Below are positions 19,501-63,545 of a stretch of 64,000 bases of DNA, piece by piece. The DNA comes from Lytechinus variegatus (taxonomy: Eukaryota > Echinodermata > Echinoidea > Temnopleuroida > Toxopneustidae), in the NCBI RefSeq assembly GCF_018143015.1, contig NC_054741.1, forward strand, positions 53,831,048 to 53,895,047, in the 5' to 3' direction. The first letter of the stretch is position 1. Every line of letters begins with the position of its first letter. The notes beneath the pieces were generated by a model. The model ran no database searches, was not told the origin of the DNA, and worked only from the letters and a program-made list of their open reading frames with translations. The translations under genes and the position numbers were made by a program.

Positions 19501-20653
19501 CCGGAGACCGTCCAAGATAGCGAGAACTTTGGAAAGTAAGTGAAGGTTTTAAGAATTGCACTTTGGAAAGTAAGTGAAGGTTTTAAGAATTGCATTTTGA
19601 GATTTTTTGTTGTAATCTTTGGGGCTTTTGTTTCTTTAATCACCATTATCCTCATTCTGAACCCATCTGGGCCGTCTCCAAAGTCATGGGCGGAAATCTG
19701 TCCCCAAAGGTAGGGGGACAAGGGCCTAGAAAATTTGAAAAGCAGGAAAAAAAAAGGGTTTTTCACCCAAAATGTAAGGTTATTTAGTCCAAAACACATG
19801 TATCATTTCGATTGTGAAGTGATGTAGTTTTCTCCATCATAAAAGACCAAAAATAGTAGGCGGGACATTTGATATTGTGTCCCCCCTACTATTTTTGATA
19901 GGGGGACGCGTCCCCCTGGGCCACCCATGCCCAAAGTCCACCCGAAGTGCTAACGTGTGCGTCTGAAATAATTTTATCGGGTCAGAGCAGAAAGTTTGAG
20001 GGAGCACAGCAAGGCGTGTTTGTGCAACATTTTGAAAAAGTTGTAAATGAGCGAAAATTTTCGCCTAGTTACAACAAAGATCTTATTTCGTGATATGATA
20101 TTTAACAAATGATTATATTTCTCTGTTTCCTATAATTTTCTTTCATTTTATATTTCTTTTCCTTTTTCCCTTCGGGCATGTTGAGCGTGGAACTTTTTGA
20201 GGCCAGAACTCCTAAACACCCCCTTTCTGTAAGCCAGTGCATTTGTTGTTATCGCGCTTTCAGCGTATTAACTTCTAATTATTATCATCATTGCCTTGAA
20301 GCAAACTGTCTCTTCCTCCCATCACCCATTTGAATACTTTAATCTGTTTATTTCATTTCACATTTTTGCATCACTTCATTTATTCCTTATTTTTCATTGT
20401 AATGTTTTTTTAACTTTTATCTTTATTTATTTTCATTCCTTATTTCTATTACATATATATTTCTTCTTTTTTTGCTGGGGGGGGGGGGGTGGGGCAGGGT
20501 TGTTGAATCATCGTATTTCTAACGTACCCCTTATCGTTTTGACTTTTCAGGATACCGTCATCAGCTGATTTACCTCACGCGGTTAACGGTGTTGATAAAT
20601 CGGATACAGATGTTGCGAGTGGGATTGGCGACAAAAGTGAAGTTGCAGTCTGA
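1381..20653 (+). CDS. SLC22-family (organic cation/carnitine-like) transporter, 12 exons
   Basis: Exons: 1381-1529, 9174-9304, 11266-11437, 12304-12407, 13108-13262, 14204-14372, 15225-15366, 16374-16474, 17672-17886, 18532-18622, 19326-19535, 20551-20653. All junctions are GT-AG and all phases agree, giving about 580 residues, close to the usual 550 for SLC22. Seen: N-terminal [11 protein letters not shown] and EFGPYQRR; a large Cys-rich extracellular loop with N-glycosylation sequons; MDLVC; the MFS signature GDRFGRHR between TM2 and TM3; LPESPRWLL; a second-half loop with [26 protein letters not shown] at the end of TM12. The family moves organic cations, anions or zwitterions across the plasma membrane; the substrate cannot be read here. 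Exon 1 carries an apparent one-base deletion, either an assembly error or a damaged allele. The other exons are open. Confidence 0.9.
1567..1816. mobile_element. MITE, CATGGGCGGAAAT family, copy 1
   Basis: Right end TGATTTCTGCCCATG and a degenerate left end; internal AGGGGGACA near each end. Shares sequence throughout with 19685-19929 and 22323-22594. Non-coding, within intron 1. Confidence 0.6.
2889..3003. mobile_element. MITE fragment, GTTGCAGAAAGAGTTG family
   Basis: The left end GTTGCAGAAAGAGTTGC and the internal ATTTGGGACTTGC are shared with copies at 11936-12082 and 52781-52933. The right end is lost into the adjoining minisatellite. Confidence 0.55.
3005..3335. repeat. Minisatellite, 42-bp unit
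   Basis: About six units of 42 bp, each made of two related halves containing TTCGTAATTCCGAAGG and TTCGTTAATCCGAAAA. Units decay at both ends. There are no unique spacers between repeats, so this is not a CRISPR-like array. Confidence 0.85.
3625..3965 (+). mobile_element. tRNA-derived SINE
   Basis: A B-box-like GGTACGAATCC at 3674-3684, a body shared with 40085-40360 (CCAGCAATGGCGTGATTTCC and a GGTGAGGTGAATGGGTACC-like stretch), and an ATT-repeat tail near 3910-3955. Within intron 1. Confidence 0.65.
4202..4883. mobile_element. hAT-like element remnant with GCTCGCGC repeats
   Basis: Right terminus GGTCACGGTCCGCCACTG at 4866-4883 matches the end of the complete small element at 9981-10093. 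Holds two GCTCGCGCTTTGCGCT-type units (about 4404 and 4669). Left terminus not found. A separate palindromic MITE (4496-4652) is inserted between the units. Confidence 0.5.
4496..4652. mobile_element. Foldback MITE
   Basis: Inverted ends GGTCTGTTGCATAAAACTTT and AAAGTTTTATGCAACGGGCC, with arms continuing through CTCAG and AACTCCGGTAAAAAC. Non-coding, about 157 bp, inserted in an older hAT-like remnant. Confidence 0.6.
5549..5831. mobile_element. MITE with TA target duplication, copy 1
   Basis: Starts CACTGTTAGAAAA and ends TTTAAAAACAGTG, flanked by TA on both sides (5547-5548, 5832-5833), which suggests Tc1/mariner-type mobilisation. Closely similar along its length to 13473-13756. Confidence 0.65.
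5834..7661. other. Intron 1, unassigned
   Basis: AT-rich intron sequence. No exon, RNA gene or clear repeat boundary recognised; short open frames here look like chance. Confidence 0.4.
7662..8214 (-). pseudogene. Broken hAT transposase, C-terminal dimerisation region
   Basis: Read on the minus strand, 8214 to about 8075 gives a stretch with [17 protein letters not shown]. Then 7890-7820 gives [18 protein letters not shown], and 7850-7662 gives [20 protein letters not shown]...[17 protein letters not shown] and a stop. This order and the [12 protein letters not shown] motif are characteristic of the hATC dimerisation domain of hAT transposases. The copy is dead: a MITE (7899-8056) splits it, with an in-frame stop just before the insertion and a frameshift near LLLVC. 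Within intron 1 of the transporter, opposite strand. Confidence 0.75.
7899..8056. mobile_element. Foldback MITE, GACTTGTCGGATAAAAT family
   Basis: Inverted ends GGGGAGTGTTTCATCAACA and a right end that reads GGGGGCGTTTCATGAAAGGA in reverse complement; internal GTTACTATGGTAAC. Related to 47815-47960 and, partly, 31090-31170. Inserted into the hAT transposase remnant. Confidence 0.65.
8883..8899. mobile_element. hAT-like terminus (solo end)
   Basis: GGCTCATTACGCCAG matches in reverse complement the CAGTGGCGTAATGAGCC terminus at 12688 and the end at about 50068-50084. No partner end found close by. Confidence 0.35.
9174..9304 (+). CDS. SLC22-like exon 2 (extracellular loop, first part)
   Basis: Begins with [13 protein letters not shown] after a long polypyrimidine tract (about 9000-9170) and TTAG. 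Encodes the large loop between TM1 and TM2, with cysteines and the sequons NDT and NKS. Donor AAG|GTTAGT, ending two bases into an Arg codon. Confidence 0.85.
9981..10093. mobile_element. 113-bp hAT-type MITE with perfect 8-bp target duplication
   Basis: Starts CAGTGGCGGACCGTGACTC and ends GGTCACGGTCCGCTACTG; the 8-bp duplication ACTGTCCA lies at 9973-9980 and 10094-10101. An 8-bp duplication with CAGTGG-type ends is the hAT hallmark. It is little more than two terminal repeats around an AACAAAGCA-type core. Confidence 0.85.
10118..10289. mobile_element. Foldback MITE, GGTGGGTGTTTCATA family, copy 1
   Basis: Inverted ends GGTGGGTGTTTCATAAAGCT and GCTGTATGAAACACCCACC; arms repeat GTTCGTAA. 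Second copy at 11744-11934. Within intron 2. Confidence 0.7.
11266..11437 (+). CDS. SLC22-like exon 3 (extracellular loop, second part)
   Basis: Acceptor AACAG, donor GAG|GTAAAG. Encodes [10 protein letters not shown] through [20 protein letters not shown], matching the family pattern before TM2 (C-x-x-GW-x-YD...). The sequon NIS is present. Confidence 0.87.
11744..11934. mobile_element. Foldback MITE, GGTGGGTGTTTCATA family, copy 2
   Basis: Same termini as 10118-10289 with longer, cleaner arms (GTTCGTAAGTTAAGAGC and its complement). The right end abuts the next MITE at 11936 with almost no spacer. Within intron 3. Confidence 0.7.
11936..12082. mobile_element. Foldback MITE, GTTGCAGAAAGAGTTG family
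   Basis: Ends GGGGTCCGTTGCATCAAGG and CTTTCCGCAACAGGCCCC, internal GTCCCAAATGCGCGCTGTTG. Same family as 52781-52933 and 2889-3003. Sits head to tail with the preceding MITE. Confidence 0.65.
12304..12407 (+). CDS. SLC22-like exon 4 (TM2)
   Basis: Acceptor ATAG, donor CAG|GTATAT. Encodes [15 protein letters not shown] followed by TM2 ([18 protein letters not shown]). MDLVC corresponds to the conserved WDLVC of the family, with Met in place of Trp. Confidence 0.9.
12688..12917. mobile_element. hAT-like element, degenerate
   Basis: Starts CAGTGGCGTAATGAGCC followed by a long C run. The probable right end TGTGCGCCATG is weakly complementary. No clean 8-bp duplication seen. Within intron 4, between exons 4 and 5. 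Confidence 0.4.
13108..13262 (+). CDS. SLC22-like exon 5 (TM3-TM4)
   Basis: Acceptor TATAG, donor CTAG|GTAAGA. Completes the MFS loop signature GDRFGRHR and continues through TM3 and TM4 ([16 protein letters not shown]). In MFS carriers this loop is a conformational hinge. Confidence 0.9.
13473..13756. mobile_element. MITE (TA-type family), copy 2
   Basis: Starts CACTGTTAGAAAATTTATC and ends TTTTAACAGTG; close match to 5549-5831 along its whole length. The flanks read TT/TT rather than TA/TA. Within intron 5. Confidence 0.65.
14000..14098 (+). mobile_element. LINE 3' end fragment
   Basis: A short 3' tail with GGAATAAAGAATTGAATTGA, like the 3' ends of CR1/L2-type LINEs and like the tail at 56130-56165. 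No coding part. Within intron 5. Confidence 0.4.
14204..14372 (+). CDS. SLC22-like exon 6 (TM4-TM6)
   Basis: Acceptor TTACAG, donor TA|GTGAGT. Encodes [14 protein letters not shown], then TM5 ([19 protein letters not shown]) and TM6. The Tyr codon split over the junction is completed by exon 7. Confidence 0.88.
15225..15366 (+). CDS. SLC22-like exon 7 (PESPRWL and start of central loop)
   Basis: Acceptor GATCAG, donor AAC|GTAAGA. Encodes [20 protein letters not shown], the family signature after TM6, then charged residues of the large cytoplasmic loop. Ends in phase 0. Confidence 0.9.
16374..16474 (+). CDS. SLC22-like exon 8 (end of central loop, start of TM7)
   Basis: Acceptor ATACAG, donor ATG|GTAATG. 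Encodes a Lys/Arg-rich stretch, then [22 protein letters not shown], which matches the family's entry into TM7. The Trp codon is split with exon 9. Confidence 0.85.
17382..17640 (+). mobile_element. SINE fragment, 5' truncated
   Basis: Shares the CTCAACCCAGGTGATG-like body and the ACTTGGAAAACAGTCT stretch with the SINE at 3625-3965; ends in an ATT-rich tail that runs up to exon 9. Confidence 0.5.
17672..17886 (+). CDS. SLC22-like exon 9 (TM7-TM8)
   Basis: Acceptor GCTAG, donor TAC|GTAAGC. Encodes [16 protein letters not shown]7-TM8 with [16 protein letters not shown], the second-half MFS loop FGRKKS, and the next helix ending CLLTIFI. Sits directly after a SINE fragment with a TTA-rich tail. 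Confidence 0.9.
18532..18622 (+). CDS. SLC22-like exon 10 (TM10)
   Basis: Encodes [14 protein letters not shown] and ELYPTTLR; donor GAG|GTGAAT. The acceptor is a doublet AGAG (18528-18531). Only the second AG keeps frame, giving TIFI-P-GVAF. The extracellular link between helices is several residues shorter than usual, so a very small missed exon cannot be excluded. Confidence 0.82.
18957..19146. mobile_element. MITE with ACACTGCAAAA-type ends
   Basis: Left end TACACAGCAAAACTCTGGTG, right end GGTGTAACACCGAAATTTTT followed by GCAGTGTTG; several internal AACACCAG words in both orientations. Within intron 10. Confidence 0.5.
19326..19535 (+). CDS. SLC22-like exon 11 (TM11-TM12)
   Basis: Acceptor TGCAG. 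Encodes [19 protein letters not shown] through [12 protein letters not shown]. The donor AAA|GTAAGT lies inside a perfect 34-bp tandem duplication, so an identical second donor sits 34 bases downstream at 19570. Confidence 0.9.
19527..19594. repeat. Perfect 34-bp tandem duplication carrying a splice donor
   Basis: Two identical 34-bp copies, 19527-19560 and 19561-19594, starting CTTTGGAAAGTAAGTGAAGG. Each holds AAAGTAAGT, so the exon 11 donor is present twice. Confidence 0.95.
19685..19929. mobile_element. MITE, CATGGGCGGAAAT family, copy 2
   Basis: Starts CATGGGCGGAAATCTGTCCC and ends CCACCCATG; subterminal TAGGGGGACA words. Within intron 11, 90 bp after the donor duplication. Confidence 0.65.
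20551..20653 (+). CDS. SLC22-like exon 12 (C-terminal tail)
   Basis: Acceptor TTTTCAG. Encodes a 33-residue polar, acidic cytoplasmic tail ending SEVAV and stop TGA at 20651-20653. The last residues Val-Ala-Val fit a class II PDZ ligand (hydrophobic-x-hydrophobic), a weak pattern on its own. Confidence 0.8.
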
Positions 20654-22994: not shown

Positions 22995-25394
22995 CATTCG
23001 AGAACAATCTTTGCGAATTAGGAAAAGTAACTCGCCACGTATATACATGTCATGTGACAATCGAAATGTGCGAATGTACTGGCGCGCGATGGTGTGTGTG
23101 GGGTGTGAGAGAGAGAGTGGAGAGGGTGTGCGTAGTTTTTGTGTGGTGGGTGTGTGTTGATTTCCTACCAGAACAGAAATGAAATAAGGGAAACTGACTC
23201 AATATTTCACAGTGACTAAATGTATCAGCTGAATGAAACTAACATTTAAGTCTTCTTACTGTATTTACAACACGGGTTTTTGTTTTATTATTTTGTGCGT
23301 ATACGGGTCTGCTTGATTGAAATCCCAAGTCTATTTGAAAGGTATGCTGCACGTAAGAATTTAGCTGGCTGCCTGAAAGAGCATCGTTGTGCACATCCTT
23401 CAATTTACATATTCTTTGAGAAATCTTATGAGCGAATTTAGTACATCATGTATTGCTGATGTATAGAGTCTAATTGTGTAGGCCTACTAGGCAAAATTTT
23501 AGTTTTATATTTGTTAACAGTAAAAGAGGGCTATGGAAAGCTAATAAAAATCTTATACATGTAACCAATAAATGCGGTTTCAGGTGACATGAACATTTCA
23601 AACTATATAGTGTCTGTCTTTGTGTTGGTATTTTTTTGTATTGGTTTATTGTTGTTCACCTTAATGACACAATACGTGATCAAAAACATATAAGCCCGCC
23701 CCGTGGAACATTATTAAAACTTACATGAAAATAATCCCAACAAAAATCGAATTTCTATTTTATGTTTGATTAACAAAATGATTCAAATCGATTCATCGAT
23801 AAATATAATCTGTAAATAAAATAACATTTGGCAAATAGCAGACCTTATCTTGTAAATCTATTGAATAATTTATAATCATTTACACAACCAACTGAATGCT
23901 TCCATTGACTGTTCCCAATTTTTTTTTATTGGAACGTCCATTTGATATTCATATTTTGTTTATTTTGATTAATACATAGGTAAATAAAAATAATTATCTC
24001 CAAGAACTAACCTGTTTTATGTATCCTCTTTTAATAAAACTACTCGTGAACTTCTTTTTTAATCCAAATACTCCTTTATGACAAAATATTATTTCATGAC
24101 AAAACATACCTACCTGGATAATTTCATACTTATTTCCTCCATAAACAGTACTTGAATGTCAAACAATGCTAAATGATGTTACTCAAGATGTCATTTTCCG
24201 TAATTGTTGAACTGTTCTGAATTCCTTTTGCACTGACTTAGAAACATGTATCCCAATATGATTTGTTTCTTCATTAGTTTTTCATCTGTTGCATTATAAT
24301 TACTATTTCCGATATTTTCTTCCATCTTTGTTAAATACCCAATCTCTTTAACTTTGTTCCTGTCTCCCTCTCTTCATCTTATTTCATTTTGTCTTGCTTT
24401 CTAACATGTTCTCACTATACATGTACTTTATTGTACCTCTCAGGCTTCCTTCTCATATGCTGGGTATTTCAATTACTTTTATATTTATGTACAATTATTT
24501 TGTAGAATAATTTCATTTTGATATTTGCCTATTTTATTCTAAGTTGTATATTTTTTTTATGTCTGTATATACCATTTGTAAACTGAATTTAATTCAGCCT
24601 TTGTTCTGCTATTTTTAGTGAATATTTGAAACAAACCATTCAATATTAATAATAATATATATAGAAATGACGCAGAAAATAACCTTTACAGTGTTTAGCT
24701 ACTTAATAAAATATTTTAATGTAACATGGCGGCTATTCGTAGACATTTAAGAATACAAGGTATCGATTGATCGTACGCTTGATCTTTTACGGTTGATTGT
24801 ACCCTGTAGCCAATTGAATCAATTCTAGAAAAATGTTCTACGATCATTGCTAAGCTTTGTGTTACGGGCCCCAGGTGTGATTGTAACAACTTTGTGCTAA
24901 AAATACAGGGGAAAACTAGAATCTGATCTTAGCAAGAAAAAGAAGCCCCCATAATTATATTAATTTTCATATGGTAATATCTCATCTTGGGAAGGGAATC
25001 TGACGAGGGCAGGTCATGGTATACGGGAAGGGGTTAGATTATCACCGAATGAAAAGTAGAATTGATATGCGATCTAACTAGAATAGACTATTTTCTGTAA
25101 ATATGTATGAATTTCGTCATATATTTCATGCCCTTCTATCCTCAACTACTGATTTTCACTCTTGTTTCTTCCAATTTATCATTGGAAAATCATTGGGGTG
25201 TCACCAGCCCCCTTTCTCACCCCATCCCTTCCCCTAACCCTATAGTGATGGGGGTTATTCGAAATGTCGCACACAGTAATAATTAACAAATTGAGAGAAA
25301 GCGAAAAATAAGCGTACACCACTATAAATAACATGAATAAAGGTCACGAAAGGTCTATTTCATCAAAGAAGTTTTGTTTACACTATTTTCTCTA
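22995..25394. other. AT-rich intergenic sequence
   Basis: No coding region recognised. A GT/GA-rich stretch lies at about 23080-23160, and a palindromic MITE-like copy at about 24745-24875 ends TTTGTGTTACGGGCCCC (relative at 54643-54785). The part at 24360-24600 resembles a LINE 3' UTR but has no diagnostic end. Confidence 0.35.
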
Positions 25395-39800: not shown

Positions 39801-42800
39801 TCCTTTTTAGATTTGAAAAGCAATGATGTAGGGCGTCATTTTATTCCAGTGATAATAACTACAAAATATAGCCTATATTGTACAATTGCCAGATTTTGAC
39901 TTCAAGCAAGACAGCACAAACAAGGAGTTTCAATTTCTTTCATAATATTGTTTATATGCCCACCTTACAACTAAAAAAAATATTATAGGGTATTAGGATG
40001 ATGATCTTGTAACAGGTCAAAATAGAATTATCATAGAGGGCTACGGATGAAATAATGTAACAGCAGCCTCAACAACCAGTTTCACTCACTGCATGGCCCT
40101 GGCCTGGGAAGTTAAGGTGCTGAAGCACCCCCAAAAGGGTTGTGGGTTCGAATCCCAGCCATGGCGTAATTTCCTTCAGCAAGAAACTGATTCACAATGT
40201 GCTGCAATCAACCCAGGTGAGGTAAGTGGGTACCGGTAGGAAGTAATTCCTTAAGAAGCTGTGTGCGCTATGAACGCCTAGCTTAGCCGGGTAATATAGG
40301 AGCACCTTGAGCACCTAACAAGGTGGATATGTGTGCAATAATTATTATTATTATTATTAAGATCTTCCTATGGGGTGCTGCATGTGTTTTTCTTCATATG
40401 CAGCAAATCCCTGGAATTCTGGTAGGTATGGCTAAATGGAGAAATGTAACCAAACTGACCTATATTTTTTAGTGAAAAACTTTTTTTTGCTTGTCAAATT
40501 TACATAACTTGCATCCTCTCTTAAAAATCATTCCCAGTGCCCTGACTCACTGTCTCATTTCTTACACACAAAAAAATTGACTATGACACTAAAGTTTAAG
40601 TCAATAGATCATGATCTGTTCTCTAAGGATCTCTCTAAAAGGATGAACTCAATCATGGAATGTGAAAGTAGTGACATAGATGATCTTGTGCTACAGTACA
40701 ACAAAGCTTGTCGTGAGGTCCTGGACGCCCATGCCCCTGCATCAACAAGGCCAATGTCTGTTCGGGTGAAGCCTGGCTGGTACACCGACGAAGTGAATGA
40801 AGCCCGACGTATCAGACGACGTGCTGAGAGATGCTGGCGCAAAGCAAAGTCAGATGCTAACTACAGACTTTATATTGAGGCCCAGCGGAATGTAGTTGAT
40901 GTTGTTGTTTCCGCTAAGAAAGACTATTATCGTAACAAACTTTCTTCGTGTAATACTAAGGACATGTATAAGACGGTCAACGAATTGCTCAATGCCAGTA
41001 GTAATGTCCTTCCTGTGTCTCCCAACTCTACAGAACTTGCTGAAAGTTTCTCAGATCATTTTGCCAGTAATCAGGCGCGTAGCCAGGGGGGGCGGTGGGG
41101 GCGGTCGCCCCCCCCAAAACGTCCCCAAAAGAGAAAAAAATAGAAGGGAAAAAAGAGAGGAGAAAAGGAAAAGGGAAGGGAGGAAGGGAAGAAAGGTAGC
41201 TTTGTGTTTTTTCTTTTTATTCATTTTTTTCTCAAAAGAGAAACTCCTTCACTCTTCTTGCTCCAAATTATTATATGATTTTTGCTCCCGCGCTGCGCGC
41301 GGTTAAATGACAATATTGAAGTTCTCCATTGTTCCCCCACCTTAACCTGTTTTTCCACCTCAGCTATGTGCTTCTTGCCAGTTAAAGTAAAATTGTATAC
41401 ATATAGGGCATGAATTTGAGTAAAGTTAGGCCGAAGTAAATATATGAAGTTATTTTTTTTTTTAATTGATCGCGCAACTTCTGGTCTGGTCGGCTCCGAG
41501 CGGGAAAATCTTTATATCAGTTTCTGCCGTCACCTCCATAAAGTCAGCTTCTCCCGCTTTTCAGCTCATTACTATAAACAACCATATTTTGGGTTCAAAC
41601 AGGTTCCTAATTTAAAAGAGGAAGGTATGGAATTCGTGTCGTATTAAATTAAAAGTACAATATTTTTTTTTATCAAATTGTATTTAAACTTCATGTCATT
41701 TCCCTGTATACATTCATCTCCTGTCCTGTTTTGCGCCTTCAGTTTGAAATTTTGAATGACACCTAAGTTTCTTTATATTCAAAATGAAGCGCTTCAGGAT
41801 AAGTAAAAAAAAATAATCATCCTTTATTATATAGATAGATAATTTCAATAAATCACAGAAGTTTCAACTTTATGCGCACTATTTTCCTTGTAATGAAGTT
41901 CAATAATCTTAGAAAATCAATTGAATAAGAGACGATTGGGTATTAGAGATATTTACATTTGATGAAACGTCCGCCCTTTGAAATTTCAGAGTTTCATTGC
42001 TCTGCGCGGGGAGGAATATCTTCCTCTACCAATCTTCTCCTCTGTTTTGCGAGTTAAAAGTATGCACTGATGCTAAATTGTTTGTAATCAAATCTGATCT
42101 TTCCAAAGAAAGTTTCAATATATCTTTGAGAATACCCTTTTCTCTGGACCCTTTTTATGGCAAGAAAAATTGATAAAACACTTTAGCTTCCGCGCTTCGC
42201 GCGGAGTTATTATCATTTTAAGTTCCTCCATTGTATACCTCTTTTGTGTGTTCACAATCACTTTTGAAAACAAGGTTCAAAATCGCAATATAGTCAACCG
42301 AATTGGAGGTACTAGAGACAAGAGAAACGGCTCCTTTTCATTTTAATTTATGAAACACTAAAAGCTTCGCGCGGGAGGGGGAAACTCCCCCTCCCTGCAC
42401 CCACCCCCTAGGGAGCGCGCTTCGCGCGCTCTGTAAGTGTTGGCACGCTTCGCGTGCATTTACCGCCCCTCCAAAATGAAATCCTGGCTACGCGGTTGCC
42501 AGTAATGTTTCTAAAATTAGAGATGAAATAGAGGGCACTGTCCCAACTGAATGTAGTGTATCTAACATATCTTCAAATACATGTAAACTTGATTCAACTC
42601 TTGATAAATTTGATACTGTGAGTGAGAATGTATTCTGTTTTCTGATAGAATACATTATCGAATACTGTTCAACCTATAAGTCTCTGTCAACCACACTACC
42701 TTCTTACATTTCTTCATTATTTCAGCAACAAAGATCTACTTACTCTCTTCGTTCTACTGCTTCTCCTTCATATGTAATTCCAAAGTCCAGAAAACAGGCC

Positions 42801-51863: not shown

Positions 51864-52641
51864 ATCAGTAAAAAAAGTATAGAAGCTCATAAAACAGATG
51901 TAGGCAGCTTATAATTCAAATCTGAATAAAATCTCAATTTACATAAATATTATTTCAAAAATATTAGATTTAAAAGGATGAATGATTATTTCACCCAGTC
52001 TATATGCACATACTGTAACCTCTATCATTTAAAGAGTAAGAAATGTTGTAATACACTGCCAGCTAGAACCTGGGGGATCCTCAAATGTCAACAGGTACTT
52101 TAAATATTAACACCCCCATATATTGTGCAGCAAAATCCAAATCACAGGGAATTGAACTTAATATGTAAGTCAACTTTCCATAAGTTAAATAATCAGAATA
52201 CATTATGCAAAGCATGTATTATCTATTTATCTATCATCAGTTGAACAGAATTGTTTGAAAACAAAATTTCTGGATTGTGAAATATAATATTGCCTGAGTT
52301 TATTTTAGGATGTTAAAAGGCATGGACAGTAAAACTGGGATAAATGGACATTAATCAATGAACATTAACAGTATTATTTTCAAGATGAAATACTATATGA
52401 AATACTAAGTCTTTTTCAAGTGGTTATTTTTTTTCTTTGTATTTGCATGAAGTGTTTTAGTTTTATATACCCATTAAAAGATTTAACATCAATAATATTT
52501 ATATTCACTGTATTAAAACCATCACATCATTAAACCCTTGTAAACTCAGTACATACAGAATAACAGATATATAACTTTGTGCAAAATAAATGGTATATTG
52601 AAAATAAGCCATGAAAGACTAGTTGCACATACATATTTCAA

Positions 52642-53050
52642 AAGGACCCTGACTTACAAACAGTTTTGATTGATCCAATTGATCTCAACTATGGATAGCC
52701 TGTGACTAAACTGCATATGTCCATTCAAATTAATTTCTGAATATGATCTATGCTCATACAAATATCATTAACTGGACAATCAGGGGCCTGTTGCAGAAAG
52801 AGTTGTAATCAATCACAACTCTAAAAATCAAGCATAACTTGATTTTCAACAAATCAACAGCGCGCATTTGGGACTTGCAGTTGATTTTTTTTTACTTACG
52901 TTTAAACACAACTCTTTCTGCAATGGACCCCTGATCCTCCTCATTTCCAAATGGACTTAGTATTTCCTGTATGAAGAATTAAGACAAAGATGGATTACCA
53001 CAGTTATGATTGATTGGATCTATCGCAATTCCTTGTAAGACAGGGCCCTG
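52642..53050. mobile_element. Nested MITEs in the 3' region of the SDS-like gene
   Basis: The outer element (AAGGACCCTGACTTACAAAC ... TTGTAAGACAGGGCCCTG) is of the 43321-43591 family. The inner element 52781-52933 (CAGGGGCCTGTTGCAGAAAG ... TGCAATGGACCCCTG) is of the 11936-12082 family. The outer edge lies about 17 bp past the SDS stop codon, so the 3' UTR probably includes both. Confidence 0.7.
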
Positions 53051-53067
53051 ATCACCCACAAGTCAAA

Positions 53068-53258
53068 TCATAGATTACAGGCTTCCTTGAATTTGAGCAA
53101 CTGTTGAAGGTTGATGGCACCCCCACCACACACGACAACGACCACGCAGCCAAGTTTCTCAGGCAACTTGCCCTCGGCCTTCAGCTCGCCTAGGACATCG
53201 CTGTAAACTGCTGATGCGGCTGCCCCGCACGCTGGCTCAACCAAAATACGATGGTCAT
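53068..53258 (-). CDS. SDS: SDS-like exon 7 (C-terminus)
   Basis: Acceptor CACCAG. Encodes DHRILVEPACGAAASAVYSD through VVVVCGGGAINLQQLLKF and the end ACNL, then TGA. The Cys in VCGGG sits near the PLP ring nitrogen in SDS structures. Confidence 0.92.
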
Positions 53259-56200
53259 CTGGTGAGTTAAAAGAAGAAAACTTGATTATGCATATTCTTG
53301 CTTTTTCTTCTTTCACAACAAAATATATATTTGTGCTTGTATTTCTTTATAGGTCTTTTTGTGTTCCAACAAAATACAATAAGCATTCAGGTCGTCCATT
53401 TATTTTTTCTCATTTTTATCATCTACTGCCAATATATGGAACAATATGTTTTTTTTTTTCTTTTTTATCATATATACATGTAAGAGAACCAAAGTGATGA
53501 CATCACAAAAGATTTTTTTTTTGCATTTCAGCATTTTAATACATTTTGGTTGAGCATTAGGAAATACCTCTACAACCCAAATTTGATGGGAATAAGTCCA
53601 TGGGGGCCTTAGATATGGCCTCATGAATACATAATTAACCCTATTGAAGTCAATGTATTATTGGCCTGGTTTTTAAATGTTAGGAACCAAGCCAATAATA
53701 CTATACAATGACTTCAATGGGGGTAATTTATTTTCAAAATCTTAAAACATACAGTGTAAACTGTGCATCATGCATAATTGTAATGCTTGAAACAGAGAAA
53801 TTAATTAAATTGCAATTTCATGTCAAAATCACTATGAATTCTGGGAAGATTTCCTTTCAGCAAGAGGAGAAGCAAGCAAAAAAAAAGAAAGATAGCAAGG
53901 AGTTAACGTGCATGAATGCATAGGCATATAGCAGAAGGCACTAAAGCACACATTAAAAAATAATTTGGAAGGGGAAAAAGTTGTTTAAACTTGAAAATAA
54001 CAATATATGTTTAGTTTGGGATTTCAAAGGAGGCTAGGCCAATTTGAGGGATAAATAAAGTGAAGTAAAGAGGTCTGTTTCAACCTCCCCCCCCCCCCCC
54101 CCCCCCCGATCTCATAATTACCGTAAGCTTTACATCTGGATATATACCAACTTGATTATGAAGAAAAGTTTCTCAAAATTTCTCAGTGGAATAATAATGG
54201 TGTTGTGATCACAAAACTCAGTCTAATTATCCTTTTACCTTTTAATTTTAAATAAAATTTTGATAAAAATTTCATTCTTATGCTTTTTAGAATTATTGAA
54301 ATTACTTGGTGTTTAACTTAACAAATCAGAATCACACTAGAATACCAGGGTACCCACCAAGTAAATGCAGGCAAGCATCTATGGCTGTTTGATCAGTTAC
54401 CACACCTGAAAGAATATTGTGCTCTTTGTTAAGGGTTAAACAACGCTCAGTGACCCTCAGAGAACCAAGCGATTTAGCCACACTGATGAAGAGAATAATA
54501 GCAAGATAGAAAAAGAAGAGAAAATAATAAAGTGAACAATACTTGGATATCACTTATTAATGTTATGCATCGTGCATTTGTTTTTTGCAATACCAAGGGA
54601 AAATATGATTACAGTGGAAATTCAGCCGAACAACTGATCTCATGATGACTGGGTCCGGTAACACAACGATTAGCGATTAATTGTACGCTTGATTTTCATG
54701 ATTAATGGTACCTCGTAGTCGATGCAATCAATCGTTAAAAAAAATGCTTTACAATGATTGCTAAATTTTGTGTTACGGGCCTCAGGAAGTGTCATTCATC
54801 AATGCTTCTGACCAAGTGACAGTTGTTGAACCTTTTGAAAAGCTGTTTTCTTGTAGACAGAAGTTCAAAAGACCCAAACTAATTACAATTGGTTACAGCT
54901 ATATCACTTCATCCTCTTGATTAAACTGGGACTCCAACAACGATCTTGAAGGGTCATTGTCTGTCGTGCACAGGATAAGGTTTTTAGTAATTTCTACTTT
55001 CTTTTGATACTGTTTTGTTTTATCTTGTAAATCGATTATTTAGATTTGTATTTACCGACTGAGGGCGCATTGATTTTTGTAGTCATGGAAAGAATGTCGC
55101 CTATCAGTTTAGTTGTTAATTTCCCTAATTTTTGTGATACAAGCCCAATGATATTGAAACAGTCAGTCTCATCAACAGTATAGTCTAGACTCGGTCTGAT
55201 TCTTGGGTTTGTCTCGACGTATCACACGCCACATTGTCATTAATTGGAATGAAGTCAATGAACCTTTGATTTTTGAGAAACAGGTAGTATTTCATAATGA
55301 TGGTTGTATATGACATGAATAGGGATCCTTTCTGTGCAAGATCAGATTCTGAGTAATTCTGTATTCCTGTCAGCTTAAACATTTTGTTTTTCACAAGCAT
55401 TTTAATCAAAATTTTATAGTTGTGTCAAAATTTTTAACGAAAAAGGTGACTAAAAACATAAATTTGGGGGGTTTCTCATTTAGCACAACAAATGGTGACT
55501 AAATGGTGATCAAAATTCTTGACATTTATCAGTTGAATAGATATTTCTTCTTGATTTTATTTTCAAACATAAAATTGGGTTTTTACCTTGTTTACTTCAT
55601 AATATGCTTTCATTAAATATGTCAGTAGTACAAGGAATAAAAATAAATATCATTTATGGGCAGTCGAAAAATCCTATCTGCTATTTTCATTCAGTCACAA
55701 AGCACCAACAGTTTGGAATGACCTGCCAAGTAATATAACATCAATAAAGAATTACAATGCATTTGAAATAAGTATAAAAGAGCATTTAATCAATCTTCAA
55801 CTTGTGTAGATTTATTTTCCACCTTTTACCTTTGTGTAGGGTTTGTTTTTTCCCCCTTTATTGTTTGATCTTGTGTTTTATTGTGGGCGAATAAGTTTCT
55901 TATATCTTACTTTGTCAATTATATTTTTTCTAATTCTTTTAGGGGGGTTATCTAGACAAACTCTATTTTGGGGTTTTTATAATTTCCCTATTTCCTCTGT
56001 TGTTTAAAATGTTAACTTATTGTATACATATATATTTTATGTGGAAGACTTTTGTAATATATGTACATAAATATGGTTTACATTTGCTCAATTATGTATT
56101 TTTATGAATTTTTATATTGTGATTTTTAATTGGAAATAAATGAATTGAACTGAACTGAAATAAATGTATGTTATTGCTTTGTGTAACTAATATGAAGTGG

Positions 56201-59200
56201 CCAGAGGTCTCTCAGAGAGGACCTAAATCAATCAGTACTCTGGTTTAATACTTACAAGCATTCATATTTTTGAGCCGTGGTATATAATCATTACTAAACC
56301 ACTTGTGTACAAATCAGACATTATAATGCCACCTTGGTACTAAACATATCAGATCTGAATTTCCACTGTATAATCATAGCAGAAAATAAGAAGTGTGCTT
56401 ATTGCAAAAGTTATGGTGATATTCTCATGCAAAATAATAAATGAAGCAAATAAGTTTGTTAAGAAGCAAAAGTTGCCTTGATGCAAAATCACCAACATAC
56501 CAAGCAACTTCAGACAACCCTTTATGGCATCTTTGTCTGGAACGACACAAGGTATGATGGGATACTTGGAAGAATACTCCAAACTCTTTTCACACACGGT
56601 GAGGGCACCTAGACACTTGCACATACTGTAAATATGAGAAGTAACGTAATAATGCTATATGGCTTGATATCAATCATTGATTATTACAGGGCTCCCGGCT
56701 CCACACTAACCCTTTTTTTCAACTGGTCCGACCTGATCATGTCGGACCTATACATAGCTAGTTTATTTTTACTGGACCGAACCTAATATTTACTGTTCCC
56801 AAATAATAAAGAAAAAATTGAATTAATTTTGCCGTCTTTTATTGCTTATTGTTACCCCCCCCCCAAAAAAAAACAACAACAACAACAAATAGTAAACACA
56901 TACAACATAATTCATGAGAACTATTTTTTGAGACACCAGAGTCATTTTCATAATTTTCAAAAGAGAAGAAAATATATTTCATTTAGATATAATCTTACTG
57001 GTCATGTCAGACCAGTAAATCTGGCTACTTCTGAAAAGTTACTGGCCTGACAGTAAATTTTACCAGTCTGGGACTGTCGGATTAGTGCCAGTGTCACGTG
57101 CTGATTATTAACATTATCATTATTATTTGTTTGGCGTCACATATGCCTTGGAGGCCAAAAGCAAACTGAATGACTATGACCCGCAGGTCTCTTCTCCAGT
57201 AACTGATTGAGGGAATGCAGATGGACCAGTGCAGTGGGTTCTGTAAGTGCAAAGTTAGTGACTCTCCTCCTCTACATGGGGCCTCCATTTAACATCCTAT
57301 CCGAGGGATGTAGTGTTTTCCTCTGTAACATATAGCCTGCGTCTATGAAACGTGGGAGGGGCATGTTTACACAGAACGCAGGCTTCGGTCATCTTCAATT
57401 GGACGTTATACTTATTCATGGATCAGGCAATTTACATTCACTTTGTCTACAACTCAGAAAGTCTATTTCAGGACAGGGGTTAAACCCATTTGTCCTATTA
57501 TCAATGTGGTCTCATTGCCGTTTGGTTTAAAACCACATTTCTTACACAGTAATTTGTTTTTCTATGCCAAAGAAGGATTTACTACAATATACTTCATCAG
57601 AGCACTTAAGAATATATTTTCATATTCATGACGTGAGTTAGCAAAGTACTGTTATTAAATTCTCAAGCTATTATCTTGAACAATTTCTTTTTTGCTGGGG
57701 AGGGGAGGGAGGAGGTTATCTGAATCTATGTACTGTTTAAAAAAAAATCTAATGTAATTGCTGATTGTTTTCTAACCTGGTTATATCTGGTAATGTCACA
57801 AGCTTCCCAGCCTTCACTGCAGCATTGAAGCTTTCAGCACCAAATGTTTCCATGGCAACTACAGGAACATCACTCCATCCAACCCTCTGAAGACCCTGAA
57901 CGACACCGCAGAGCAGGCCTCCACCCCCGACGCATGTAACGACCACGTCAGGTTTTTTACCATGAAGCTGGTCCTGGATTTCCAAAATCATAGTCTCATG
58001 CCCTTCCCTGTAAAGTATTGAAAGGGGTTCAATAGCCTTAATTTAAGTGAGACATATCAAGAACAAAGAATATATGATAAATCATGTAGAATTTAAACCT
58101 ACTTGGACCAATCCCATAGGCCATAGCCTCTGTTGATTGATGTTTTTCAAAAGTTAAAGTAAATTCTATAAGAGAAAATGTCCAGAGGATGTAAGTCAGA
58201 ATATTCTAAACAAGATAGAAATTTCAATCAACTTTGAAAGCAATATTCAACAGATATTTGAGAGGTGATGTTGAATAGTATTACCACAAATAACAAATTA
58301 TCTGTGCTTTTTGATGCATAGATATTGTAATTTGACAAATAGAAATAAAATATCTGGACATCAATCCCCATTGTGCTATAACATACCAATAAATGATGTA
58401 CCATGTACAAATAATAATAACAATATCACTAGAAGTAGTAATAATTGAAATAATAATAATAATAATAATAAAAATACTACTACTAATAATAATGATAATG
58501 ATAATAATAACAATAATAATAATACTAATACTAATAATAATGATAATGATAATAATAACAATAATAATAATAATACTAATATAATGATGATAATAATAAC
58601 AATAATAATAATAATATTAACCACAATAATTATAACAATAATAATATAATCCTACTACTACTACTACTACTACTACTACAAATAATAATAATAATATAGT
58701 AAAAATAATAATGATAATAATATCATCATTGATATTCATATAGCGCTTTTGATAAACAATTCAAAGCAAATACCCATGATGAGAAGCACAAATGCCTTTA
58801 TAATCCCCCTTCCCTGCTTAGTGAGAGATAAGAATTGTATGTCCCATTAATCACATATTGCAAATAGTTTTGTATCATACCAAACATCGGGATGATCAAA
58901 CGGATGGATGACTACTGCTGACGGATCTTCCTCTGCCAATTGAAGAGCATGTTGGTTAGCATAGTCCCATACCTGTAAAGAATCATGTATGATATGCTGG
59001 GAAGTTAACCTTAAAGGGCAAGTCCACCCAAAAAAAAAGAGTTGATTTGAATAAAGAGAGAAAAATCCAACAAACATAACACTGAAAATTTCATCAAAAT
59101 TGGATGTAAAATAAGAAAGTTATGACATTTTAAAATTTCACTTAATTTCACAAAACAGTTATATGCCCATCTCGGTCAGTATGCAAATGAGGAGACTGAT

Positions 59201-62200
59201 GACATCATCCACTAACTAATTCTTTTGTATTTTATTATATGAAATATAAAATATTCTATTTTTCTCATCATTGTCAAGTGAAATCATACTATATGATTCA
59301 GTCAACGTGGTCCTTATTGTCAAATCTGTAAAAAAAATGAAATATTGTATAATTCAAACTAAAAAAAAAGAAATAGTGAGTGATGCCTGATGGACCTCAT
59401 CGACTGACTCATTTGCATGACACTGAGTTGTGTATATCCCTATTTTGTGAAAAATAAGTTAAAATGCCATCTTTTATTCTATATCCGATTTTAATGAAAT
59501 TTTAAGTGTTATGCTAGTTTAATTTTTTTCTCTATTTATTCAAATTAACATTTTCCTGGGGTGGACTTGACCTATAATACATAATTGGTTTTAATAAAAC
59601 AAACGCAAATAAAACATCTTTCCCACCCACATGTGAAACATCCAACCCGCTCCTCAAGAAAAGGGACAGAAAGAGAGATAGAGAGAGAGAAAAGAAATTG
59701 GTTTGCCTACTTTTCCATGGACAATGACATTGGCTCCAAGATCTCGTATTTTGTCTGCCATAAATTTGGGTGTACTCTCCGGAACCACAACTGTTGCTGG
59801 CATACCAAGTTGTCTTGCAGCATATGCAGCAGCATAACCAGCATTTCCTCCTACAAAACCAAAGACAAGACAACACTGTAAAATTAGTGCAAAAATGTCA
59901 AGGGGGTGCTGATGATGAAAGTTTGAAGTCATTCATATTTTGCTCTTAACTGCATGGATTTACATTTCCCAAAGTGAGGTTAATAATCAACAACTGAGAA
60001 ATTTGACACATTTAAAACTAAATCAACCATATTTACTAACAGGGGCTCAGGGACAACTACTCAAAGACCTTGGTAGCTTAACTGCTATATTGATATACAT
60101 TTCAACAAGAGACCAAATGATCATTTTCAATTAGTTATCAAAGCAATAGACATCTCATTATCTCAAATGACTTGATAGACATTTGTGGGCTTGCATGCTC
60201 TTACCAAATATCAACCCAATGATTAACTTATAAAGGTTGCCAGTTGAAAACACACTTCCAGGCATTTGCTCAAGGAGACAAGACTGTCTGAAATGACACA
60301 TCCCATACCTGATAGGATTGTGGGATATTACCTGATGAACTTATGATTCTTGTGTATCCAGCTTCAAGAGCCTGCAAATCACACACAAAAAAGTTAAATC
60401 AAAGCCCATGAATACAGAGATACTCATCAATTCGTTAAGTAGTCCATGATTCAACATTGATATTTTATTTGTATGCACAGATAATGATAAAAAAATCCTG
60501 GAAAGTCAATGGTTTTCTTCTTTGTGATGAGGCTTAGGATCATCCACTAATGATTATAAACTGTTCACTTTTTATTAAGTTAAGAATTAATCTCCTCTTT
60601 CAGTAGGGATATGCTACTGGTATCTTTTCAGAACTATTAAAGACCATTAGACCAACAAAAAATAGTTTAATATCCTGGTGCTTGAAATATCTTTCAATAA
60701 TAATTTATATTCTATTTTCAATTTTCATTATGGGTATAGGCCTATATACTGAGGTACATGTGGTTGGTCATGAGGAAGGGGGCAGTCTTGTTTTATAGAA
60801 TGAGTTTATGGCATTATGGGCATGCAATATAACATAATACATCTTGATTTTGTGTATGTGTGTAATTTGTTTTATATGTATAATAAGTAAGTACTATAAC
60901 TACATCCTTCCTTCAGATATTTTTCAGAGTGTAAAATTTTCAAGATCATGTTTTGTTATTTTAAATCATTAGCCATCATCAATCTTTGAATTGTGAAATG
61001 CAACTGTCAACTATCTTTTTATTTCTATATAAATTATCCAACCTTCAAAATATGCATTCTGGTTGAAATAAAGATTGGGAGATTGAATTAAACATAGTTA
61101 CATTTACAATATTACAAACAAAGTTTACATTATTACAATTTACAAAACAAAATATTTACATTTATTCTTTCTGGAAAGTTCATTAAATTCACACTTCATG
61201 ACATTGGGTCACTTTAAACAGGGGCATTATAAACACATGTATCGACTATATTCTGATCTCACTTCGTGGGAAGTTGAATTTCCCTTAAATATCCTCAACA
61301 ATCAACATTGGGTCAATGATTGACCAGGCAGAAAAGGGCTGATTTCCATTTTATCATGGACACGGCCATGAGCATCCCTCTGTGGCACAAAAGGCTCCAC
61401 AGCTTGGGGACAAGCTATGATTAATGAGTGTGCGAGGTGCTAGGGGTGACTGCTGGGTTGGTGGGTGCAGTTGTTTGATTTAACGTGCTTATGGTTGCTG
61501 GATGAACGAGGAGTGTGGTATGAATGTGAGTGTGTTTTGTTTTGTAAGAGATTGTTTGTCGGCCCTATTAATGCATAGCTCCAGTGAGGTTAGCTGACCC
61601 TAAGTTCCGCCTGAGCGATGAATTTGAATAACCAACTCCATTGCCCAGGTTGAATGGTGTTGTTGTGGGATTGGCAATCCCTGGCTGGAGCTGTGCATTG
61701 AACTTGACTGCTCGCTCGTCCCCAGACACCCTCCTGTCTTTATTTCTTGTTACCTGCTTAAACCTACGTTTTTATTGTTTGAATTTGAATTACGATGTTT
61801 ATCAATAAGCCTCCTTCCACCACCACCACCTCTCAGTCTTCTATTTGTTTTTACTTCATCTTTTCCTTTTAGTATACATAATATGTTAAGTTGCATTATA
61901 TTTTCGTAATCATTTCAAGTTTTGATGTTTTTAAATCTGTACACTCTATGTATATATACCTGTAAATTGTACGCAATTCAGCCTTTCGGCTGCAAAGTGC
62001 AATAATTTTGAATAAAACCTTTTCAATTTCAAATCATATAAGGCAGGACCCACTGGGAATGGGTCCCCTGGGAGAAAAGCTTTTGGTTTGCATTTAATAG
62101 GAACTGAACTGTCTACGTGACTCGTCTGAAGACCCAGGCCAGGAGGCAAGACAGGTAAAAATTATTGAAAGAATTTTTCATCAAATTCAAAAACGTCATC

Positions 62201-62430
62201 AAACATAAAATCTAATCCTCCTTATATTACCCATGTTAATCACGTTAAATTAAATGTTTAGCAACTTTTAGTACCTTCTTGCATCTGTTTCCAATACCCC
62301 TAATTTTGAAGGATGCCGTAGGTTGCATGTTGTCACATTTGATGTACACTGGACATCCTGCGATCTTCGTCATTGGAATGCTCTCCAAAAGAGGTGTTTT
62401 TATATGAAGCTCAGGTTCAGATCCTGCCAT
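53068..62430 (-). CDS. SDS: L-serine dehydratase / L-threonine deaminase (SDS-like), with a duplicated exon
   Basis: PLP enzyme converting Ser to pyruvate or Thr to 2-oxobutyrate plus ammonia in the cytosol. Exons on the minus strand: 62275-62430, 60332-60371, 59711-59850, 58881-58972, 57777-58007, then either 56501-56625 or 54358-54482, then 53068-53258. Either choice splices in phase to 324 residues; human SDS has 328. Seen: LHIKTPLLES; SFKIRGIG with Lys42 as the expected PLP Schiff base; SSGGNAGYAAAYAARQLG; HPFDHPDVWEGHETM; VGGGGLLCGVVQGLQ; METFGAESF; LVEPACGAAAS; VVVVCGGGAINL. SSGGNAG has Gly where human SDS has Ala, as in SDSL. Only a single set of the other exons is present. Confidence 0.92.
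53630..53735. repeat. Small foldback in SDS-like intron
   Basis: CCCTATTGAAGTCAATG and CATTGACTTCAATGGGG-type arms (read in opposite directions) around TATTATTGGC; about 100 bp. Confidence 0.6.
54358..54482 (-). CDS. SDS: SDS-like exon 6b (alternative)
   Basis: 125 nt, acceptor CATCAG, donor TTG|GTGGGT. Encodes SVAKSLGSLRVTERCLTL through DQTAIDACLHLL; 18 of 42 residues match exon 6a. SVAK-LG agrees with human SVAKALG. Open and free of damage, so not an obvious dead copy. Confidence 0.85.
54643..54785. mobile_element. MITE, GTGTTACGGGCC family
   Basis: Left GGGTCCGGTAACACAA, right TTTTGTGTTACGGGCCTC; internal GATTAATTGTACGCTTGATT. Relative at 24745-24875. Between exons 6b and 6a. Confidence 0.55.
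55640..56165 (+). mobile_element. CR1-like LINE 3' end, between the duplicated exons
   Basis: Plus-strand frame gives FSFSHKAPTVWNDLPSNITS, then FEISIKEHLINLQLV and a stop, the C-terminus of a LINE reverse transcriptase ORF. The 3' UTR ends AAATGAATTGAACTGAACTG. Antisense to the SDS-like gene, 5' truncated. Confidence 0.75.
56501..56625 (-). CDS. SDS: SDS-like exon 6a (alternative)
   Basis: 125 nt, acceptor TTACAG, donor TTG|GTATGT, entering in phase 2 and leaving in phase 1. Encodes SMCKCLGALTVCEKSLEY through DKDAIKGCLKLL, followed by D from the exon 7 junction. Five cysteines. Same length and phase as exon 6b. Confidence 0.88.
56690..57090. mobile_element. Candidate MITE in SDS-like intron
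   Basis: Repeated ACTGGTCCGAC, GTCGGAC and ACTGGCCTGACAGTAAATTT words in both orientations, with ends near GCTCCACACTAACCC and GGATTAGTGCCAGTGT. Boundaries approximate. Confidence 0.4.
57777..58007 (-). CDS. SDS: SDS-like exon 5 (Gly-rich PLP phosphate loop)
   Basis: Encodes EGHETMILEIQDQL, then CVGGGGLLCGVVQGLQRVGW, METFGAESFNAAVKAGKL and TLPDIT. GGGG holds the PLP phosphate in this family. Donor CAG|GTTAGA, phase 2. Confidence 0.93.
58433..58740. repeat. AAT-type microsatellite
   Basis: About 300 bp of AAT/ATG/ACT trinucleotides in SDS-like intron 4. Open frames here are low-complexity artefacts. Confidence 0.95.
58881..58972 (-). CDS. SDS: SDS-like exon 4
   Basis: Encodes VWDYANQHALQLAEEDPS and VVIHPFDHPDVW (Trp split). 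Acceptor TTACAG, donor TTG|GTATGA. Confidence 0.92.
59012..59576. mobile_element. Foldback element, AAGGTCAAGTCCACC family, copy 2
   Basis: Ends TTAAAGGGCAAGTCCACCC and GGGTGGACTTGACCTATAA; arms with GGATGTAAAATAAGAAAGTT. Fills most of SDS-like intron 3. Confidence 0.65.
59711..59850 (-). CDS. SDS: SDS-like exon 3 (substrate loop)
   Basis: Encodes GGNAGYAAAYAARQLG, then a stretch with VVVPESTPKFMADKIRDLGA ending at GK. Acceptor TTGTAG, donor AAA|GTAGGC. Confidence 0.92.
60332..60371 (-). CDS. SDS: SDS-like exon 2 (40 nt)
   Basis: Short exon encoding ALEAGYTRIISSS and the first base of Gly. Acceptor TTTGCAG, donor CAG|GTAATA. Confidence 0.88.
60372..61330. other. SDS-like intron 1, part, unassigned
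   Basis: AT-rich. A short tail GAAATAAAGATTGGGAGATT near 61068 may be a LINE 3' end; nothing else recognised. Confidence 0.35.
61330..62036 (+). mobile_element. LINE 3' UTR (CR1/L2-like)
   Basis: Ends with ATTCAGCCTTTCGGCTGC and AATAAAACCTTTTCAATTTC, typical of CR1-like 3' ends. More GC-rich than its surroundings and without a coding frame. Antisense within SDS-like intron 1. Confidence 0.55.
62275..62430 (-). CDS. SDS: SDS-like exon 1
   Basis: The ATG at 62430 is the only one in a frame open from about 62515. Encodes residues 1-52, including YIKCDNMQPTASFKIRGIG with the PLP lysine. Donor AAG|GTACTA, phase 0. Confidence 0.9.
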
Positions 62431-62517
62431 TACGCCTGTCAGTTCGTTTTCTTCTAAACCCAGGAGAAGGTTGCGAATGTCAAATGTCGCAATAATATAG
62501 TTTCGGGCTTTCAGATA

Positions 62518-62770
62518 TTAGCTATTAAAAAGCGATAACGGGAGCGATAAATGTTCGGAGTGCAGTGGATCAGCTTCATCCGGCAATCGTAAAAGGCTTG
62601 AACAGGCTACGGCATGCATGCGATGGAGCTCTCCGGCCCGAACCAGCCGGCCGGAGACGCACCGCTGGCCGGCGAGCAGAAGCAGGCGAAGTAGCATGCA
62701 GGCAACGGCTCTAGCTAGCTGGGGGTGCGTTTGGAGGCACGACCGAGCCAACCACTCACAAGCCGACGTG
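62518..62770. promoter_or_regulatory. GC-rich region upstream of the SDS-like gene
   Basis: A local GC- and CpG-rich patch (CCGGCCCGAACCAGCCGGCC) 90-340 bp upstream of the SDS ATG in otherwise AT-rich DNA. A promoter-proximal CpG patch is the simplest reading; no motif is decisive. Confidence 0.3.
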
Positions 62771-63545
62771 AGCTTAGGCTTTGATCCAGTTCCCTTACCA
62801 AGTTACCAAGTTTTTAAATTTATTTTACATGTAAATTTAACCCTATGTAGTCTATATTAAGATTCATTTGTCACATTAAAATGTATTTTGTTTACTTTTA
62901 TTCATATTTTTGCTTTAAAAATATTTTTATACAGAAATTTACAGAAAAAGTAATATACTAAAATGTAAAGGCCTGAAAACATGGTAAAAATAGACAACAC
63001 GTAATCTGTTCGGATTCACATCATCATTTGGATTTGGAATCTCCTTTTCGCTAACTTTCTGCTCTGTTGTTAAGTAGGCATACAGTGAATTGATTATTTT
63101 GAGGTAATGTATGCATTATTGTTGCATGAAAAATTGAAATATACATGACTAGCCTAGGCTGGGTAGTACAGGGACCAGGGGAGATTTAGGAAGTCGAGTG
63201 CTGCATGCACTGTGGAGTGTGGATCCATATCCCAGCAGTGGGGCTTACGGCTTACGAGTTACGCCACCATAGCCCAGGCTCCAGCCAGCCCCAGGCCAGG
63301 GAGCTCCCGCCAATTGGCTTATTTGCCATAGACATAGCCTGGGGCGTTTTGGGGAGTGAAAGTTATAACTAATGCTGTACATGGTAACCGATTTTTATTC
63401 CAATTCCCGATCCGATCCGATTTTCCCCTTTTTTCTACATTTTTCCGAACTCCGATTTTTGACCAGTGGGGAAAAAATCGGATCGGAAAAACCAAAACAT
63501 AACAAGACAAAAAAAAAACATGTGGCGACATGTTTGCCGTCAAAA
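62771..63545. other. Flank, unassigned
   Basis: AT-rich, then a short palindromic patch at about 63385-63490 (GATCCGATCCGATTTTCC; AAAAATCGGATCGGAAAA) that looks like another MITE. No gene recognised. Confidence 0.35.

Follow-up and report, generated by a model that had tools for sequence, protein, structure and literature searches.

A serine dehydratase gene with a twofold exon 6

The DNA analysed here is a 64-kb window (the whole stretch, 64,000 nucleotides (nt) of contig NC_054741.1 of the echinoid Lytechinus variegatus), whose minus strand carries a seven-exon gene for an L-serine dehydratase of the animal type, an enzyme that degrades serine (SDS/SDSL family; pyridoxal phosphate (PLP) fold type II). 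This gene has its exon 6 twice (Table 1). Judging from the DNA, exon 6 of this animal SDS gene was probably duplicated in tandem, and the two copies, 6a upstream and 6b downstream, now appear to serve as mutually exclusive exons.

The two 324-residue isoforms, one with each copy, match rat serine dehydratase from end to end, and the same holds for human SDS (4h27; 349 bits with the 6b isoform, 345 with the 6a isoform) and human SDSL (2rkb; 342 and 340 bits, respectively); the Pfam family PALP is matched at 248 bits by the 6b isoform and at 241 bits by the 6a isoform. Outside exon 6, identities amount to 154/275 with human SDS and 149/269 with human SDSL, and the constant exons are thus about equally close to both. 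The PLP lysine, the glycine loop and the ring cysteine all align within constant exons 1, 5 and 7; the role of the ring cysteine, like those of other key residues, is taken from human SDS (PMC6424897). With full-length matches and all three of these elements, both predicted isoforms are members of the SDS/SDSL family.

A preliminary description of this DNA had singled out 6a and 6b as two exons of exactly 125 nt that enter in phase 2 and leave in phase 1, and had claimed that either one alone yields a 324-residue enzyme while inclusion of both, or of neither, breaks the frame. The coordinates, lengths, AG/GT borders and phases are borne out by the sequence and the gene model, the frame through either copy is uninterrupted, and reading the spliced frames confirms both kinds of break. 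When 6a is joined to 6b, the first stop falls inside 6b, 99 nt ahead of the exon 6b/7 junction; when both are skipped, a stop is formed by nucleotides 2-4 of exon 7. Intervals of 125 nt bounded by AG and GT occur 15 times in the 4518-nt intron region, and two of the 15 are open in the correct phase. Published criteria for predicting mutually exclusive exons include similar length, compatible splice sites with a conserved frame, and homology (PMC3228551), and in 6a and 6b we find similarity of length, suitable splice sites and frame, and homology together with adjacency. Lengths not divisible by three are also common among human clusters of such exons, where they were reported for 377 of 629 (60%) (PMC5740500).

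Table 1. Exons of the SDS gene and arms of the intronic inverted repeat, in window coordinates
Feature	Position	Strand	Remarks
SDS exon 1	62275..62430	-	156 nt; start codon, PLP-lysine motif SFKIRG; gene model and alignment to SDS/SDSL
SDS exon 2	60332..60371	-	40 nt; gene model
SDS exon 3	59711..59850	-	140 nt; gene model
SDS exon 4	58881..58972	-	92 nt; gene model
SDS exon 5	57777..58007	-	231 nt; GGGGL phosphate loop; AG| end, phase 2; gene model
SDS exon 6a, upstream alternative copy	56501..56625	-	125 nt; MCKCLGALTVCEKSLEYSSKYPIIPCVVPDKDAIKGCLKLL; derived, Cys at conserved Ala
Inverted repeat arm	56355..56370	-	perfect 16 nt; 130 nt past exon 6a
Inverted repeat second arm	54610..54625	-	perfect 16 nt; 127 nt ahead of exon 6b
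SDS exon 6b, downstream alternative copy	54358..54482	-	125 nt; VAKSLGSLRVTERCLTLNKEHNILSGVVTDQTAIDACLHLL; canonical form
SDS exon 7	53068..53258	-	191 nt; stop codon, PLP-ring Cys motif VCGG; gene model

Resemblance, age and divergence of the two copies

The peptides of 6a and 6b agree at 17 of 41 exon-internal residues, at 18 of 42 (the count first given for the pair) when the split serine is included, and at 19 of 43 once the other split codon is counted too, and their nucleotides are identical at 64 of 125 positions. To place this resemblance, the window was scanned in all six frames (127,756 positions), without gaps and over the full length of the segment. With 6b as query, 6a scored 74 and the runner-up 18 (mean -45, standard deviation 14); with 6a as query, 6b likewise scored 74 and the runner-up 24. 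A profile made from rat SDS, human SDS and human SDSL ranked the two copies first and second in the same scan, with scores of 62 and 53, followed by a next-best score of 17.

The distribution of differences over codon positions speaks to the age of the pair and to what has maintained it. Identity is 20/41 at first, 29/41 at second and 13/41 at third positions; third positions are thus nearly saturated and second positions are not, which argues that the pair is old and has been maintained as protein. In neutral one-branch simulations run at the third-position distance (n=20,000; a simple equal-rates model with 6b set as the ancestor), none reached 29 second-position matches and none reached 17 identical residues, while 3125 of the 20,000 retained an open frame. 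The chance that no indel at all would have accumulated is about 1e-5 at an assumed rate of 0.05 indels per substitution and about 1e-10 at an assumed rate of 0.1.

For a wider view of the segment, we used bacterial relatives obtained by scanning contigs with the alignment, which gave 402 matches and 353 relatives; the best 80 of the 353 were taken, and 78 passed the filter. All of these best 80 are bacterial by title, and the set therefore has no bearing on conservation of the exon pair. A scan of genome contigs with the plain 6b isoform returned 31 pattern matches, none of them a relative, and among viral contigs neither the single match to the 6a isoform nor the 66 matches to the alignment was a relative. 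Against a profile of the 78 bacteria, the exon 6 segment scored 61.7 for 6b, 61.3 for human SDS, 69.3 for human SDSL and 45.9 for 6a; the best score among 2000 shuffles of each copy was -44. By these measures the canonical copy is 6b, which resembles vertebrate SDS, whereas 6a has evolved faster and is divergent though still recognisable.

The two predicted proteins differ at 24 of the 43 segment residues. The positions corresponding to Ala220, Leu223 and Asp248 of the rat enzyme are invariant in 78/78 bacteria; 6b retains all three, and 6a retains the leucine and the aspartate and has cysteine in place of Ala220, a position that is alanine in human SDS and SDSL as well. We take the exon 6 segment, Ala220 included, to lie near the PLP and cation sites. 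The preliminary description had dwelt on another contrast, namely that the leucine of the monovalent-cation site is kept in both exons and that the next ligand is alanine in 6a and serine in 6b, from which it proposed that exon choice could tune cation dependence. The alignment upholds the residues, and the proposed tuning is at most possible, for the ligands Leu223 and Val225 presumably act through backbone carbonyls, and alanine is the commonest state in the family at position 225 (72/78 bacteria and human SDSL; valine in human SDS). It is then 6a that has the usual residue and 6b the unusual serine. The striking contrast between the predicted isoforms is the cysteine for alanine at rat position 220, not the cation-ligand position; the segment has five cysteines in 6a and two in 6b.

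A tree of the segment, built on 43 residues, joins 6a and 6b as sisters (support 0.89) and places rat SDS, human SDS and SDSL in a separate clade (0.94). This is moderate evidence that one of the two copies gave rise to the other, independently of the duplication behind vertebrate SDS and SDSL.

Candidate mutually exclusive splicing and its possible consequences

The anatomy of the locus, the homology of the copies, the codon-position constraint and the frame rule all support the earlier proposal that 6a and 6b are candidate mutually exclusive exons. The sequence of events we favour begins with tandem duplication of exon 6, probably after the split from the lineage leading to vertebrates. Both copies would be spliced in vivo, one per mRNA, with exclusivity enforced at least after splicing, in that joint inclusion would shift the frame and probably expose the mRNA to decay and double skipping would end translation in exon 7. 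Which copy is used would probably be decided by trans-acting splice regulators.

Several observations weigh against this reading. Exclusive splicing is proposed from the DNA of one assembly of one species, rather than observed. When one copy was compared with the window by tblastn at E values up to 10, the other copy was not reported, and the human peptide found 6b only and missed 6a, so the relation between the copies is remote and visible only over the full length. The profile score of 6a lies under that of the lowest bacterial segment in leave-one-out scoring (48.95), and this low score, together with the departure from the conserved alanine, makes the activity of a 6a enzyme uncertain. The five animal sequences are not monophyletic in the segment tree, their smallest common clade holding 56 of the 80 tips with support 0.0; with so short an alignment, the timing of the duplication can be placed only tentatively. 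A scan with an approximate donor matrix and splice motifs found no motif that singles out the 6a/6b pair; pyrimidine tetramers, for instance, number eight before 6b and equally eight before exon 4. The sole strong intronic pairing, that between the arms of the inverted repeat, lies entirely within the 6a-6b intron and would loop out neither exon. Finally, reads joining both exons were reported in 83 of the 377 human clusters of incompatible length (PMC5740500), and the small number of such clusters suggests that frame shift and decay usually act as a backstop and not as the main control.

The divergence of 6a also invites the view that one of the copies, in all likelihood 6a, is a leftover of the duplication that is decaying or out of use, with only 6b being spliced. 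Besides its lower score against the bacterial profile, 6a keeps 10 of the 21 columns common to human SDS and SDSL, compared with 13 for 6b, and the whole 6a isoform reaches 187 bits against the bacterial family model NF006094, versus 200 for the 6b isoform. A relic, however, would hardly be expected to retain an indel-free open frame and undamaged splice borders when third positions are nearly saturated, nor to show second positions so strongly constrained that no neutral simulation matched the observed resemblance, and the donors score alike (2.2 for 6a and 2.4 for 6b, approximate values from the donor matrix). We regard such a relic as unlikely.

By the usual rule, a stop codon more than 50-55 nt ahead of the last junction commits an mRNA to nonsense-mediated decay (NMD). 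The stop produced by joint inclusion satisfies this distance, which makes the mRNA with both copies a typical NMD target, and one might suppose that addition of the second copy is a regulated poison event that lowers SDS productivity by sending its mRNA to NMD. A poison exon, however, need not code for a homologous and constrained SDS segment, and here either 6a or 6b alone completes the enzyme; we hold this explanation to be very unlikely. It is less probable still that 6a is part of another, incompletely present SDS gene or an assembly error, as might be feared of a pair known from one assembly, because 6a is the only exon lying between exon 5 and 6b and its phases match theirs. A tblastn search of the window with the entire 6b isoform revealed no duplicate of any other SDS exon, and a scan of the minus strand at 52001-63000 turned up no further copy of exons 1, 3, 4, 5 or 7 (exon 2, with 13 residues, being too short to judge).

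If 6a and 6b are indeed mutually exclusive, the exclusion is not of the steric type. Steric exclusion is reported to need less than 50 bp between donor and branch point (PMC5740500); the 6a-6b intron measures 2018 nt, so too short an intron cannot be the cause. All introns are GT-AG, and no donor looks like the U12 consensus; on this comparison, made with no U12 model, the splice sites show no sign of mixed spliceosome types. Pairing between the arms of the inverted repeat extends to 22 bp with a 2-nt bulge, and a repeat of 16 nt was matched in 0/300 shuffles of the 2018-nt intron and in 3/300 shuffles of the 4518-nt region, which makes it unusual for the intron and less so for the region as a whole. 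In its layout the repeat seems to match neither the docker-selector nor the bidirectional pairing scheme of exclusion as described in PMC6071210, and we did not adopt it as an RNA clamp, which would draw 6a and 6b together and not loop one of them out. The repeat may be related to splicing or may be a transposon end. Both arms adjoin TA, a context that would be compatible with the termini of a Tc1/mariner-like element. A further candidate pairing, which brings the 6b acceptor together with intron 5 (22 nt at 73% complementarity; duplex energy -18.7 kcal/mol), would loop out 6a, but 33 pairs of this kind occur.

As to function, the 6b isoform would be, by its sequence, an ordinary serine/threonine dehydratase, and for the 6a isoform altered kinetics, stability or regulation would be the most likely outcome, rather than a new reaction, by analogy with KHK-A/KHK-C and PKM1/PKM2. 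It is tempting to speculate that splice choice toggles the gene product between the canonical serine/threonine dehydratase (with 6b) and a form that functions differently (with 6a), a proposal that we consider doubtful. Perhaps the 6a form could be redox-gated, differ in the substrates it prefers, or enter mixed dimers as the impaired subunit, possibilities suggested by the cysteine at the conserved alanine and the surplus of cysteines in its segment.

Homologous mutually exclusive exons are a well-known arrangement, and the SDS gene as host of such a pair is new within the literature searched; in the titles and abstract openings of open-licence papers no mutually exclusive exons were reported in an SDS gene, vertebrate SDS gene structures not having been checked, and the papers PMC7275387 and PMC6937848 deal with matters other than SDS splicing. 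KHK-A and KHK-C derive from duplicated exons 3a and 3c. Like the pair proposed here they are two splice isozymes of one metabolic enzyme, and they differ in tissue and in substrate affinity (PMC11332825), although enzyme and fold are other ones and the KHK isoforms and their kinetics have been measured, whereas the SDS pair is known from sequence. PKM1 and PKM2 likewise arise from mutually exclusive exons that are exchanged within the fold of a metabolic enzyme (PMC7954323), but PKM switches allostery and tetramer formation, and no allosteric ligand is implied for SDS. The exon-swapped enzymes PKM and KHK showed how exon choice can govern flux; in SDS, an alternative version of exon 6 would amount to nature's own exchange experiment in an enzyme of fold type II, the two proteins differing only in one segment of about 42 residues. 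Vertebrates have SDS and SDSL as two genes. Human SDS and SDSL thus present two serine dehydratase forms of the same family in one animal, but here a single gene has two exon copies, and 6a and 6b are sisters, not one SDS-like and one SDSL-like. If splicing does switch between functionally different forms, as speculated above, a single gene would achieve through its alternative exons what in vertebrates takes these two genes.

Intronic repeats and other features of the window

The 6a-6b intron also holds one member of a dispersed repeat (54671-54786, with its counterpart at 24761-24875; 77% identity over 117 columns), whose ends read like GGCCCGTAACAC / GTGTTACCGGACC, and which has the look of a small inverted-repeat element. 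Strong local hairpins occur at 53633-53728 in the intron between 6b and 7, formed by two inverted-repeat pairs (26 nt, 88%; 22 nt, 86%). On the plus strand, an open stretch at 55603-55806 has no Pfam match; from its pattern FSHKAPTVWNDLPSNI we take it to resemble the C-terminal part of a protein of non-LTR retrotransposons.

Elsewhere in the window, the longest open stretch listed (40508-41140, plus strand, 211 residues) matches UBN_AB at 18.9 bits, below the cut-off of 25, and may, from its general look, presumably be a retrotransposon piece. Two further open stretches on the plus strand, at 17631-17900 and 19267-19536, have no Pfam match and look to us like fragments of a transporter of the organic-cation type. 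An exon-like segment on the minus strand at 36482-36883 matches the Ras family (PF00071, E 1.4e-9) and is probably part of a small GTPase gene.

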